Positions 189-23,853 of a stretch of 64,000 nucleotides of DNA are shown here, piece by piece (position 1 is the stretch's first letter; each line of letters starts with the position of its first letter). The notes beneath the pieces were generated by a model, which worked only from the letters and a program-made list of their open reading frames with translations, was not told where the DNA came from and made no database searches. The position numbers were made by a program, and so were the translations under genes. This stretch comes from Alicyclobacillus herbarius DSM 13609 (GTDB lineage Bacteria > Bacillota > Bacilli > Alicyclobacillales > Alicyclobacillaceae): positions 1 through 64,000 of the forward strand of contig NZ_AUMH01000020.1 in the NCBI RefSeq assembly GCF_000430585.1. Direction: 5' to 3'.

Positions 189-1178
189 CTATTCGGCAGG
201 CTCAATCTCGAAGCCGAAATCCTCAATCATCCTCCAATCGGCCTCGGCCGCCTGTCCTGGTGTGGTGAGGTAATCCCCGACAAAGATGGAGTTGGCCGCG
301 TAGAGGGCGAGCGGCTGCACGCTGCGCAGATGATGTTCACGCCCGCCCGCGACGCGAATTTCCTTTGTAGGATTGACAAACCGCATCATCGCCAAGATTT
401 TCAGACACTCCATCGGCGTCAGGTCACAGTATCCCTCAAGTGGAGTTCCATCAATCGGATTGAGAAAGTTGCACGGAATGGAATCCACGTTAAGATCCCG
501 TAAGGCGAAGGCAATGTCGACGCGCTCCTCCGGGCTTTCCCCCATACCAAAAATGGCACCGGAGCAGGGAGAGAGACCTGCGGCCTGAACATGCTGAAGC
601 GTCTTCACTCTGTCCTCGTAGCCGTGCGTTGAGCAGATATTTTGGTAGTGGTTGGCGCTGGTGTTAAGATTGTGGTTGTACCGATGGACACCGGCCGCGG
701 CCAATTTCTGGGCTTGTTCCGGGGTGACAAGGCCGAGGCAGCAGCAGATGCGCAGCGGGGTCGTGTTGCGAATTTCACGGACAGCTGCGGCCACCTCTTC
801 CACTTCCCGATTGGACGGACGCCGGCCCGACATGACAATGCAGTATGTAGAAGCTCTACGGGCAAGTGCTTCTTGCGCGCCCTCGATGAGCTGCTGGCGT
901 GTCAACAGCGGGTACTTCTCAATCGGGGCCTGGGATATCACCGATTGCGAGCAGTACGCACAATCCTCCGGACACAGGCCCGATTTCGCGTTTACAATCA
1001 TGTTTAACTTCACGGTGTTGCCATAGTAGTGTCGGCGCAGTTGGTACGCGCCATCGAGCAGGGATAATACCTCGCTGTCCTCCAACTGCAGCATGGCAAG
1101 GGCTTCTTCCCGGGTGACCTCATCTCCTGCCAGCACTCGGTTGGCCAACTCCCGCCATGCGTTGCTCATGTCTACCAC
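189..1178 (-). CDS. bioB: Biotin synthase
   Basis: Radical SAM enzyme that inserts sulfur into dethiobiotin, the last step of biotin synthesis. The CxxxCxxC cluster motif is present in GLCPEDCAYCSQS, followed by family blocks such as YNHNLNTS and GREHHLRSVQPLAL. I place the start at GTG 1178 because AAGGAGGG lies 6 nt upstream; ATG 1169 is the alternative, and an upstream GTG at 1199 would put the ribosome binding site inside the gene. Length is about 329 aa, normal for the family. It stands alone: no bioA, bioD or bioF lies nearby. A BirA-type operator lies just upstream, so repression by biotin is likely. Confidence 0.96.
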   Translation of the reverse strand: MVDMSNAWRELANRVLAGDEVTREEALAMLQLEDSEVLSLLDGAYQLRRHYYGNTVKLNMIVNAKSGLCPEDCAYCSQSVISQAPIEKYPLLTRQQLIEGAQEALARRASTYCIVMSGRRPSNREVEEVAAAVREIRNTTPLRICCCLGLVTPEQAQKLAAAGVHRYNHNLNTSANHYQNICSTHGYEDRVKTLQHVQAAGLSPCSGAIFGMGESPEERVDIAFALRDLNVDSIPCNFLNPIDGTPLEGYCDLTPMECLKILAMMRFVNPTKEIRVAGGREHHLRSVQPLALYAANSIFVGDYLTTPGQAAEADWRMIEDFGFEIEPAE

Positions 1179-1204
1179 GATTTGCCCTCCTTGTCGCACA
1201 AATA

Positions 1205-1235
1205 TGTAAACATTTATACATCGTAGAGTTTACAA
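1205..1235 (-). promoter_or_regulatory. BirA operator upstream of bioB
   Basis: Read on the minus strand, TTGTAAAC and GTTTACA are separated by exactly 16 bp, the arrangement of the BirA (biotin repressor) operator. The site lies about 27 bp before the bioB start. A second site with the same half-sites and spacing lies at 23167-23198 in front of bioY. An AT-rich TATAAA lies inside the spacer and may be part of the promoter, but I could not define a convincing -35. Confidence 0.87.
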
Positions 1236-20324: not shown

Positions 20325-22160
20325 TTACAACCCCAGCACGCGTATCCCCATCATAAGCGTCCCTGCGGCCATGGCGGCCACGACACAGACCGTATCAGTG
20401 CGCCGCCACCTGGCCTGCACACTCTCCGTCCGTTGTTTCCCCAGCCGGTATCCACGAATCTCTAGCGCCTCGGAGAATTCGTCGCCCAGACGCAGGACGG
20501 ATAACAGCAAGGGAATTCCCACCGCCGGCAGGTCGCGCAGGCGCAGGCCAGCACGCCGTGGATTGGCGCGGGCGCGCGCCCGGGCGATGCGAGCGAAACG
20601 GTTGAACTCGGCCAGGAGAACCGGAATAAAGCGGAGGATTAACGACGCGGACAACGCAATCGCTTCACTGGGCAGGCCGATGCGGCGCAGCGGGCGAAGC
20701 ATCTCTTTGATGCCTCGCTGCATCTGCAGAGGCTCCGTGGTCGTCGGCAAAAGGACGCCGAGGGCAACGACAAGAAAGAAGCGATAGCTCTGCCAGAGGG
20801 TATTCCACGCCTGTAAAGGCATAAAGCCTACCCAACTCCAATGCCACGCCCCGTGTGGCCACGCGTCTGGACTGCGGACGGCGATTCCCGACAACATGCC
20901 CGATAGGACCATCAGCATCAGCAGCGGTTTCACCAATCGCCACCACGGTCGATACGAGATGCCGGATGTCCACAGAGCCGCGGTGACGACCAAGGTGCCG
21001 AGCGCATACCCCAACCCACTGTGCTGCAGCAACAGGCCGGCCGAGAGCACCAGGCAGGCGGCCCATTTCGCCCGCGGATCGAGGTCTCTGGCCGCCTGCC
21101 GCCATGGTGTGCCGCCACCGACAGTGTCCGATTCAGTCGGGGCCATGTCAACAGAAGCCGGGGTAGCTGCATCAGCGCCGTGGTCGCAAGCAAAGCTCTC
21201 CTTGTCGGCACCCGACCGTGTCTCGCGGGCGCGCATGCCCGCTGCCTCATGCACACCCGCGTCGAGCGGCGCGGGCTGTGGCGAGATGAGTGGCTTTACC
21301 GGCGCTTCATCGCGCATGTGCATCCACTCGATGAACGAAGCGGCCAGCTGTTCTGGTGTTAAATCGGTTCCCAGCGGAATTCCCAAACTGACGGCCGCTT
21401 GCCCGATGGCTAGGACTTGGGATTCGCACAGACCGGCGGCAGCAAGAATGTGTGGCTGATGGAGCAGGGACGCCGCACAGCCCTGGTGCAGGACTCGGCC
21501 TTCACCCAGCACCACCACGTAATCCGCCACGGGCAACAGGGCGTCCAAGTCATGCGTGGCGATGATCATGCCACCCCTTTCGGCCTCATCCCGCCAAGCC
21601 GTCAGCCAGCGCGTAAGTGCCGTGGTGGCGGACGGATCGAGACCGGCCGTAGGTTCATCGAGCAAGAGCCAGTCCGGTTTCACGGCCAGTGCAGTGGCCA
21701 GCGCGACGCGGCGCTTTTGCCCGCCGGACAAAGTGAGCGGCGAGGTCATCAGAAAGTCTGGACCGAGACCGACATCCGCCAGCGCCTTGACCGTCCGTTG
21801 TTCCACCTCCGCGCGCGGGAGCCGAAGCGGCCGCAGGGAGTACCGAAACTCCTGCGCGACGGTCGAGGCGAACAGGTAGGATTCGGGTGACTGGAACACC
21901 ACACCCAGGCGCTGTTGTACGGTGGCATTCAAACGCCCGCGTTCCCAAAGGGGCGCACCGTCCAAGACGATGGAGCCGGCGTCGGGCTTTACCAGACCGG
22001 ACAGCGCGTCGAGCAGGGTGGACTTGCCGGCGCCCGTGCTGCCGACCACCAGCGTGATGGCTTTATCCGGGAGGTCTAGGTTCACGTTCTGCAAGCGGGG
22101 GCGCGTGTTGCCCGCGTCCCGCTCTGGGTTTACGCAAAGCCCGCGTATGACAACCGGCAC
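20325..22160 (-). CDS. ECF transporter fusion: EcfA2 ATPase joined to EcfT membrane subunit
   Basis: 611 aa. Residues ~1-275 are an ATPase: Walker A GSTGAGKST, signature LSGGQKRRVALATA, Walker B WLLLDEPTAGLDP, H-loop IIATHDLDAL. A low-complexity linker of ~75 residues follows. Residues ~350-611 are EcfT with membrane helices and the coupling-helix pattern ANPRRAGLRLRDLP ... EALEIRGY. Normally these are separate proteins. I place the start at GTG 22160 because AGGAGG lies 7 nt upstream; an upstream ATG would lack one. The gene overlaps ecfA1 by 31 bp. Divergence from bioY across a BirA operator indicates a dedicated biotin module. Confidence 0.88.
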   Translation of the reverse strand: MPVVIRGLCVNPERDAGNTRPRLQNVNLDLPDKAITLVVGSTGAGKSTLLDALSGLVKPDAGSIVLDGAPLWERGRLNATVQQRLGVVFQSPESYLFASTVAQEFRYSLRPLRLPRAEVEQRTVKALADVGLGPDFLMTSPLTLSGGQKRRVALATALAVKPDWLLLDEPTAGLDPSATTALTRWLTAWRDEAERGGMIIATHDLDALLPVADYVVVLGEGRVLHQGCAASLLHQPHILAAAGLCESQVLAIGQAAVSLGIPLGTDLTPEQLAASFIEWMHMRDEAPVKPLISPQPAPLDAGVHEAAGMRARETRSGADKESFACDHGADAATPASVDMAPTESDTVGGGTPWRQAARDLDPRAKWAACLVLSAGLLLQHSGLGYALGTLVVTAALWTSGISYRPWWRLVKPLLMLMVLSGMLSGIAVRSPDAWPHGAWHWSWVGFMPLQAWNTLWQSYRFFLVVALGVLLPTTTEPLQMQRGIKEMLRPLRRIGLPSEAIALSASLILRFIPVLLAEFNRFARIARARARANPRRAGLRLRDLPAVGIPLLLSVLRLGDEFSEALEIRGYRLGKQRTESVQARWRRTDTVCVVAAMAAGTLMMGIRVLGL

Positions 22161-23140
22161 TGTACCACCTCCTGCACAAGCGCATCCGGGGTCATCGGCC
22201 GCCCCACCGGAATTCCGGCCGCCCGCATCTGTTCCGCCACCACAACCGCGGGAGGCGGGGAGAACCCCATCCCACGGCACGGGGACAGACTCTCCCCTTT
22301 TGCCGATCCGCCCGCATGTTCGTCCCTATATCCGTCTGCATAAAAGAAGTCCTCTGGCCTGCCGAGAAACTCGACGCGTCCGCCGGCCAAGGCCAACACC
22401 CTGTCGACCCAGGCCAACTCATCCATCCACTGGGTGACCCAAACCACGGTCGTCCCGGACGCCTTCACCTCTCGTGCCACCTCGAGAATCCGGCGTCGGG
22501 AACTGGGGTCGAGCATGGAGGTGGCTTCATCGAAGACGACGATTTGGGGGCGGACTGCAAGTGCGCCGGCAATCGCGGTTAGCTGCTTTTGACCACCAGA
22601 CAGGCTGGCGACGGCATAATGGGCCAGGTCCGAAATCCCCACCCGCTGCAGCGCTTCCTTCACTCGAACGGCGATTTCACGCGGTGCCACCGCCATGTTT
22701 TCCAATCCGAAGGCCACGTCTTCCCAGACGGTTGCGCCCACCAGCTGTGCATCCGGGTTTTGACCGACCAGTTGCACGCGCAGCGAAGTGGGTGGCTGTG
22801 GACCGTCGGCAGGCGCACCAAAGCGCGATGGTTTTCGCGCCGGTTCTTGCCCGCCAGGTTTCGTCCGCCGTGATTTGGCCGTATTCGCTCTGGTCAGCGG
22901 CCAGCGTCTGGACTCGAAGATGGCTTCGGCTTGCCCGCTGGAGAGGGGCAGGAGTCCTGCTAAGACGCGTGCTAGAGTACTCTTACCGCTGCCGTTGGGG
23001 CCGACGACGGCCAGCCATTCGCCGGCGCGCACGGACAAGGTCAACGGGTGTAAGACCGTCTTTGGTCCGTGTGGGGTTTGAAAAACTACCTTGACCTGGT
23101 CCAGCTGGATGCCTGCCTCCAGTTTGCCCACGCTTTGCAT
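22130..23140 (-). CDS. ECF transporter ATPase, first subunit
   Basis: 336 aa. Walker A is GPNGSGKST, the signature LSGGQKQLTAIAGA, Walker B IVVFDEATSMLDP. Between Walker A and the Q-loop (VQLVGQNPD) there is a basic, low-complexity insertion of ~45 residues. The H-loop position reads VWVTQWMDE, so the usual His is Gln. A ~60-residue extension follows the ATPase core. It overlaps the ecfA2-ecfT fusion gene by 31 bp and diverges from bioY. It would form the ATPase heterodimer with the fusion protein. Confidence 0.9.
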   Translation of the reverse strand: MQSVGKLEAGIQLDQVKVVFQTPHGPKTVLHPLTLSVRAGEWLAVVGPNGSGKSTLARVLAGLLPLSSGQAEAIFESRRWPLTRANTAKSRRTKPGGQEPARKPSRFGAPADGPQPPTSLRVQLVGQNPDAQLVGATVWEDVAFGLENMAVAPREIAVRVKEALQRVGISDLAHYAVASLSGGQKQLTAIAGALAVRPQIVVFDEATSMLDPSSRRRILEVAREVKASGTTVVWVTQWMDELAWVDRVLALAGGRVEFLGRPEDFFYADGYRDEHAGGSAKGESLSPCRGMGFSPPPAVVVAEQMRAAGIPVGRPMTPDALVQEVVQCRLSYAGFA

Positions 23141-23166
23141 CCTCCCGTTTCCGTGCTAGAATTCGA

Positions 23167-23198
23167 TTGTAAACATGATATCATTCCGTGGTTAACAA
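23167..23198 (+). promoter_or_regulatory. BirA operator between ecfA1 and bioY
   Basis: TTGTAAAC and GTTAACAA are separated by exactly 16 bp, the BirA operator arrangement, 26 bp upstream of the bioY ATG and 27 bp upstream of the ecfA1 start on the other strand. One site could control both directions. The same half-sites occur in front of bioB at 1205-1235. Confidence 0.88.
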
Positions 23199-23223
23199 AC
23201 CAAGAGAAGTCGGAGGGATACGT

Positions 23224-23853
23224 ATGCACTTTCGCCTGACGGTGCGCGGGGTGGTGTTTTCCGCTCTGTTCGCTGCGCTGCTGGTGGTGATGAGCTACGC
23301 CAGCATTCATATTCCAGGATCTCCGGTGCCCATCACCCTGGAAAACATGGCGGTCATGCTGGCGGGAGCGATTTTGGGGCCTTGGTATGGGTTCTTCAGC
23401 ATGCTGCTCGTGTTGGTGCTGACCGCGTTGGGGCTACCGCTCTTACATAATTCTGGCGGCATGGGCGTGATTTTGGGGCCAAGCGGCGGCTACATCTGGA
23501 TGTGGCCCATCTGCGCGCTGGTGGTCGGTCTCTTTACGCACGCCATCGCCACTCGGACGGGCGGTTCTCGCCCACCTCACCGTATCGTAGCCTTGCTTGG
23601 GCTGTTTGCCGTCGTGGAGGTGTGCGGATCGTGGCTGGATTATATCCTGGCCATTCCCTGGCTGATGCACACGCTCCACTTGACGTTGGCCAAAGCGATG
23701 GTTGTCGGGTGTTATCCGTACCTGCCTGGCGACACCTTGAAAGCGGCCGCGACAGCCGTCATCGCGCGGGCGGTGTACAGCGTGTATCCGCCACAGCGTC
23801 TGATTCATGGTGCTGCGGCTCAAGTGGCCGTGCTCGATACGCCCGATGCATAA
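23224..23853 (+). CDS. bioY: Biotin ECF transporter substrate-binding protein BioY
   Basis: 209 aa, about six membrane segments. Family motifs are ITLENMAVMLAGAILGP and MGVILGPSGGYIWMWP. BioY binds biotin with high affinity and works with ECF ATPases and EcfT. ATG 23224 has CGGAGGGA 6 nt upstream; an upstream GTG at 23188 falls inside the operator and is unlikely. It diverges from the ATPase/EcfT genes across the BirA operator. Confidence 0.96.
   Translation: MHFRLTVRGVVFSALFAALLVVMSYASIHIPGSPVPITLENMAVMLAGAILGPWYGFFSMLLVLVLTALGLPLLHNSGGMGVILGPSGGYIWMWPICALVVGLFTHAIATRTGGSRPPHRIVALLGLFAVVEVCGSWLDYILAIPWLMHTLHLTLAKAMVVGCYPYLPGDTLKAAATAVIARAVYSVYPPQRLIHGAAAQVAVLDTPDA

Follow-up and report, generated by a model that had tools for sequence, protein, structure and literature searches.

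A putative biotin ECF importer of Alicyclobacillus herbarius in which an ATPase is fused to EcfT and one composite ATP site is altered

The genome of Alicyclobacillus herbarius DSM 13609 encodes, within the 64,000 nucleotides of contig NZ_AUMH01000020.1 analysed here (the window), an energy-coupling factor (ECF) transporter in which an EcfA2-type ATPase and the membrane subunit EcfT form one chain. The fusion gene overlaps ecfA1, the gene for a separate ATPase, and bioY is transcribed divergently from both (Table 1). Our results indicate that the module is probably a dedicated biotin importer under the control of BirA, in which EcfA2 is tethered to EcfT and ATP would be hydrolysed mainly at one of the two sites of the ATPase pair.

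The fusion gene is a single open frame on the minus strand, from a GTG at 22160 to 20325, with a product of 611 amino acids and a calculated mass of 66.07 kDa. A preliminary description of the window had read this frame as an EcfA-type ATPase, a linker and an EcfT, and the Pfam matches on the chain bear it out, with ABC_tran at residues 23-172 (E 1e-28) and CbiQ/EcfT (PF02361), the mark of a membrane subunit of the EcfT/CbiQ family, at residues 356-578 (E 4e-19). The top NCBIfam match of the fused ATPase is ECF_ATPase_2 (205 bits) and that of the separate ATPase ECF_ATPase_1 (218 bits); both scores lie under the curated cut-offs, so the assignments denote kinship and not a certified name. The nearest solved relatives are the group II EcfT 4hzu, found with an EcfT profile built from 21 relatives (4hzu_T, E 2e-40), and the EcfA2 4mki_B, the top structural match of the fused ATPase (Z 29.8). 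An AlphaFold2 model of the fusion has a mean predicted local distance difference test score (pLDDT) of 87.3 and a predicted template modelling score of 0.83, and the structure searches with it, whose matches all came from the ATPase half, are uninformative for EcfT and for the docking of EcfA2. The linker measures about 65-75 residues (68 by the profile borders), with pLDDT <50 at residues 298-301 and 303-340; across 71 loci it ranges from 22 to 111 residues, with a median of 45, and is rich in A, P and S. The GTG start, preceded by AGGAGGTGG, lies within ecfA1, the two genes overlapping by 31 bp.

The relatives in which the preliminary description had proposed to look for the same fusion carry it, and separate genes are not the general state among them. 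The fused frame is present in both other genomes of the genus, at 54% and 55% identity (3/3 genus members), and loci read by profile showed an A2-T fusion, or a triple fusion, in 40 of the 41 genomes of the family, the exception being G033. In one of these genomes (G031) the fusion alone is visible before the contig ends. In another (G036, L204:3999-6752, plus strand) the biotin module is wholly fused, with A1-A2-T encoded by a single frame of 918 aa that runs divergently from bioY. The fusion also occurs in 12 of 18 genomes of the sister family in the same order. These two frequencies are fairer than the count from the loci assembled for comparison, 72 in all from 71 genomes, 28 genera and 7 families, where 71 have ecfA1 followed by ecfA2-ecfT and one has the triple fusion: those loci were mostly picked for long frames or for bioY, and 71/72 is therefore no unbiased rate. 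They comprise the window and 71 of 90 fetched stretches, most of which had been fetched for a long EcfT frame or a bioY in a search row. The remainder are L092-L099 (both ATPases and EcfT in one chain, hereafter A-A-T, two joined ATPases plus a separate EcfT, and others; L099 has no EcfT match), L203 (fusion present at a contig end, no neighbours), L214 and L215 (lone bioY) and the controls L216-L223.

Beyond these families, a class-wide sample of 398 genomes listed 54 EcfT matches at >=160 bits, all in frames of >=557 aa (rows counted by eye; in some of the frames one stop was read as sense). In a phylum-wide sample, also of 398 genomes, the EcfT rows at >=160 bits came from the genome studied here and four genomes of one other family. 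A collection scan added Alicyclobacillus shizuokensis, A. kakegawensis, A. tolerans, Tumebacillus flagellatus, T. permanentifrigoris, T. avium, Paenibacillus puerhi and two unclassified assemblies as carriers. Divergent bioY, ecfA1 and the fusion stand together in nine of its ten loci, the tenth (L248) being cut by a contig end; several of these loci are apparently the same records as members of the 72. Two candidates were rejected as fusions: L221, where the EcfT frame merely overlaps that of EcfA2, and L038, a long frame with a lone EcfT.

The surroundings of the fusion point to biotin. BioY is a predicted integral-membrane S component for the vitamin, by its match to PF02632, and bioY stands divergently next to 70 of the 72 loci; its start is more likely the ATG at 23224, behind GGAGGG, than the upstream GTG at 23188. 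Exactly one BioY was found in 39 of the 41 family genomes, and the two without it are 72% and 85% complete. Between ecfA1 and bioY lies the sole zero-mismatch match in this genome to a BirA-type operator pattern, this site and that upstream of bioB having been scored against what we take to be the BirA consensus. With <=3 mismatches the pattern gave 25 and 31 matches in this genome, compared with 33 and 26 for the reversed control; only the best matches are informative, since looser ones are no commoner than in the control. An operator with <=2 mismatches is present in 54 of the 70 intervals between bioY and ecfA1, and in 5 of 700 shuffled ones (shuffles preserving base content, not dinucleotides). 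The genome also encodes a BirA-like protein, whose ligase part matches TIGR00121 (183 bits, above the cut-off of 83) and whose DNA-binding part matches TIGR00122 below its cut-off (42 bits against 70). Besides BioY, a search with PF12822, applied to this genome and two congeners, and with PF02632 found no S component above the PF12822 cut-off in this genome. The preliminary description had argued for a dedicated biotin module linked to BirA, and the two operators, the BirA-like protein and the constancy of bioY uphold it; biotin would be the substrate and BirA the repressor. The bioB gene with its own operator (189-1235) is on the same contig as bioY, some 22 kb away, and in both congeners a second operator-like site is likewise on the bioY contig.

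The ATP sites of the module are unequal. In a pair of ATP-binding cassette (ABC) proteins, one ATPase contributes its Walker, Q-loop and H-loop residues to each composite site and the other its signature. Both EcfA-type ATPases of the window have Walker A, Walker B and signature motifs; in EcfA1 the H-loop His has become Gln237, so that the catalytic motifs are altered in one composite site only, a change that may bear on hydrolysis. Gln occupies this position of EcfA1 in 51 of the 72 loci, whilst EcfA2 has His in 72/72. In the 15 loci of genus g2 EcfA1 keeps its His, and it is the signature of the partner EcfA2 that has decayed (WSTGM, LSTGM and similar); nine of the Gln loci have an altered EcfA2 signature in addition. 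The site formed by the nucleotide face of EcfA1 and the signature of EcfA2 is thus altered in 66 of the 72 biotin loci and in one of 45 controls, with at least two routes to the alteration (the EcfA1 H-loop in most genera, the EcfA2 signature in g2). Changes in the opposite site, for which the fused chain provides the nucleotide side, occur in 1/72 biotin loci and 0/45 controls. By genus, the alteration is found in 25 of 28, with g7, g27 and g24 remaining intact. These counts are of related sequences, not of independent events; at least 4 changes between His and Gln are required on the EcfA1 tree. The asymmetry goes beyond what the preliminary description had observed, and is the stronger finding.

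The controls for this comparison were 48 loci, namely short-EcfT-frame rows from the phylum and class searches together with L216-L223, assigned to group II by sequence and not proven to be shared cores. They yielded 47 EcfA1 and 46 EcfA2, with both in 45 loci. L220, itself a fusion, is included, and without it the count is 1/44; L273 lies outside the 45 because its EcfA1, with Asn in the H-loop, has no paired EcfA2. A single control (L219:7353-8381, minus strand) has an EcfA1 likewise with Gln in the H-loop.

Some observations weigh against the reading of a dedicated, mainly one-site biotin importer, and two alternatives to it concern function. Both ATP sites may hydrolyse, the His-to-Gln and signature changes being tolerated drift and the fusion only fixing stoichiometry. 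EcfA1 retains the Walker A Lys and the Walker B Asp-Glu in 72/72 loci, so the presumed loss of the site is deduced from H-loop or signature changes only, and both sites look intact in six of the 72 loci, all from the three genera named above, which means that the asymmetry is unnecessary for the fusion. We nevertheless consider this alternative unlikely: drift should not pick one side, whereas the same composite site is altered in nearly all loci by two routes, and the opposite site and both sites of the controls are altered at most once each. Less likely still is that a group II-like core is shared, driving S components other than BioY as well, and has bioY next to it by chance. EcfA1, EcfA2 and EcfT are all nearest in sequence to group II parts, and in two genomes of one genus (L065 and L071) the fused module is kept while bioY stands alone elsewhere in the genome (L215 and L214). 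Against the dedicated importer as such, 16 of the 70 intervals have no convincing operator, including 5/5 of f3/g26 and 9/13 of f2, and the search for S components was narrow (PF12822 and PF02632), a YkoE-like one having been met only by reading neighbours. Against a shared core stand the single BioY of this genome, with no other S component above the PF12822 cut-off, and the frequency of both the adjacent divergent bioY and the operators.

The remaining alternatives concern the chain itself. That it is cut, or started internally, to give separate EcfA2 and EcfT, the fusion existing only at gene level, seems to us very improbable. The linker is long, variable and predicted to be disordered, and could be proteolysed; but none of its three start codons has a clear ribosome-binding site upstream, so that internal re-initiation was rejected, and a stop between the domains occurs in 0 of 71 two-gene loci, most of them picked for their long frames. 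That two genes were joined by a frameshift or an assembly error, conceivable in a draft of 57 contigs, is practically refuted by the conservation of the fusion in the genus (3/3) and in 40 of 41 family genomes.

For the dedicated importer that we favour, the parts suggest the following cycle. BioY would capture biotin and, once loaded, dock on EcfT, to which EcfA2 would be permanently tethered through the flexible linker. EcfA1, the product of the upstream gene that overlaps the fusion gene, would join EcfA2 and complete the ATPase pair. The nucleotide-binding face of EcfA2 and the signature of EcfA1 would form the consensus, hydrolysing site, and the face of EcfA1 with the signature of EcfA2 a worn-down site that probably binds ATP with little hydrolysis. 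Since the consensus site has the EcfA2 face, the fusion would hold the working nucleotide face on the chain of the membrane subunit. In group II ECF transporters the S component is reported to dissociate in an ATP-dependent manner (PMC12075633); the fusion would leave such dissociation free yet prevent the loss or exchange of EcfA2. It is plausible that the fusion forces a defined heterodimer with EcfA1, as the preliminary description had supposed, because the unequal ATP sites fit such a pair; an (A2-T)2 assembly may be an alternative. More tentatively, and with the balance tipping slightly against it, this ECF branch may have moved from a two-site to a one-site motor, with its sole consensus face on the membrane chain and EcfA1 mainly supplying the signature. 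The worn-down site would then have decayed by at least two routes, perhaps because selection on it was relaxed by the fusion.

The module shares features with both groups of ECF transporters. Like the group II core EcfA1-EcfA2-EcfT of folate and pantothenate transporters (4huq, 4hzu, 5d3m), it has two unlike ATPases plus EcfT, in the same gene order A1, A2, T, and this core provides the nearest solved relatives of both fusion domains. Unlike that core, it has A2-T in one chain (71/72 loci, with A1-A2-T in the other) instead of three separate chains, a divergent bioY with a BirA operator, and one composite ATP site altered in most loci. As in dedicated group I transporters, the S component is encoded with the module. 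The group I biotin transporter BioMNY has a single type of ATPase, BioM, which was crosslinked as homodimers, and its BioN is a separate chain (PMC3246461). In both systems BioY has A and T partners of its own, but membership of BioMNY was rejected, the present module having two unlike ATPases, one of them fused to T. In the group I transporter YkoE-YkoD-YkoC (PMC5037267), YkoD carries two ATPase domains in one chain and YkoC, the T component, is separate; the likeness lies in a dedicated module with fused domains. Fused ATPase pairs in ECF transporters are described in PMC6828968 and PMC5037267, and a literature search covering titles, abstract openings and passages of some papers, key older surveys not among them, found no A-T fusion or degenerate ECF ATP site.

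Outside the ECF family, unequal sites are familiar. The heterodimeric ABC transporters known to have one degenerate ATP site are mainly exporters, and they too combine unlike ATPases, one consensus site and one altered composite site. Unlike them, the present system would be an importer of the ECF type, and its consensus nucleotide face lies in the chain fused to the membrane subunit.

In a tree of 133 EcfT domains (7 duplicate or near-duplicate rows dropped and 3 rows relabelled), all 73 biotin fusions fall on one side of a branch with a Shimodaira-Hasegawa-like approximate likelihood ratio test value of 88. They stand beside group II EcfT, apart from lone EcfT and from the lineage of A-A-T chains. 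A single origin of the biotin fusions is compatible with this tree and moderately supported by it. The module looks like a group II-type core made into a dedicated biotin module, because the fused EcfT sits beside group II EcfT with this support.

Other ATPase-EcfT fusions were met. A second ECF module of the same genome (L092:6729-9389, minus strand, contig C9) combines both ATPases with EcfT in a single chain of 886 aa. It adjoins a YkoE-like S component (PF09819), and a gene for transketolase is close by; its EcfT belongs to another lineage in the tree, and 17 A-A-T rows were met among the loci examined. In a distant genome of the phylum, L220:4342-6264 (plus strand) is an EcfA-EcfT fusion near a gene with Hpre_diP_synt_I and NusG_II domains. 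It is a true A-T fusion, which we take as independent because it falls among the group II rows of the EcfT tree. The statement of the preliminary description that ATPase and EcfT are separate chains in known ECF transporters calls for correction, given the A-A-T chain and L220, and the A-A-T chain in this very genome means that such links are commoner than it assumed. In the genus, EcfA1 has a peculiarity of its own, about 40 additional residues between Walker A and Q-loop (approximately 22784-22918, minus strand): the spacing is 75, 78 and 76 residues in the three members, compared with a median of 37 across the 72 loci.

Table 1. Features of the biotin module and of the bioB region in the window
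Feature	Position	Strand	Basis
ecfA2-ecfT fusion gene	20325..22160	-	Open frame; Pfam ABC_tran + CbiQ; kept in relatives
EcfA2-type ATPase domain and C-terminal helical part, about residues 1-285	21306..22160	-	Pfam, NCBIfam, AlphaFold2, structural match
Linker EcfA2-EcfT, about residues 286-350, predicted largely disordered	21111..21305	-	AlphaFold2 pLDDT
EcfT domain, about residues 351-611	20328..21110	-	CbiQ match; EcfT profile match
H-loop His (residue 203) of the fused ATPase	21552..21554	-	His in 72/72 loci; H203 invariant across 56 aligned rows
ecfA1, separate ATPase, 336 aa	22130..23140	-	Sequence, Pfam, NCBIfam
Gln237 of EcfA1, replacing the H-loop His	22430..22432	-	Sequence; Gln in 51/72 loci
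bioY, S component, 209 aa	23224..23853	+	BioY PF02632, E 9e-35
BirA-type operator between ecfA1 and bioY, TTGTAAAC-N16-GTTAACAA	23167..23198	.	0 mismatches
Second BirA-type operator, upstream of bioB	1204..1235	.	2 mismatches; looser pattern 0 on one strand
bioB, biotin synthase, same presumed regulon	189..1199	-	TIGR00433, 422 bits against a cut-off of 225

To our knowledge, the division of labour between the two ATP sites of an ECF importer in driving the S component is not settled. With A2 and T naturally fused and one site apparently dead, the present module offers a direct test case for whether one site is enough, and its T-bound ATPase should not be lost. With Alicyclobacillus, Tumebacillus and Paenibacillus among the named carriers, it would represent a distinct and widespread type of biotin importer for structural work.

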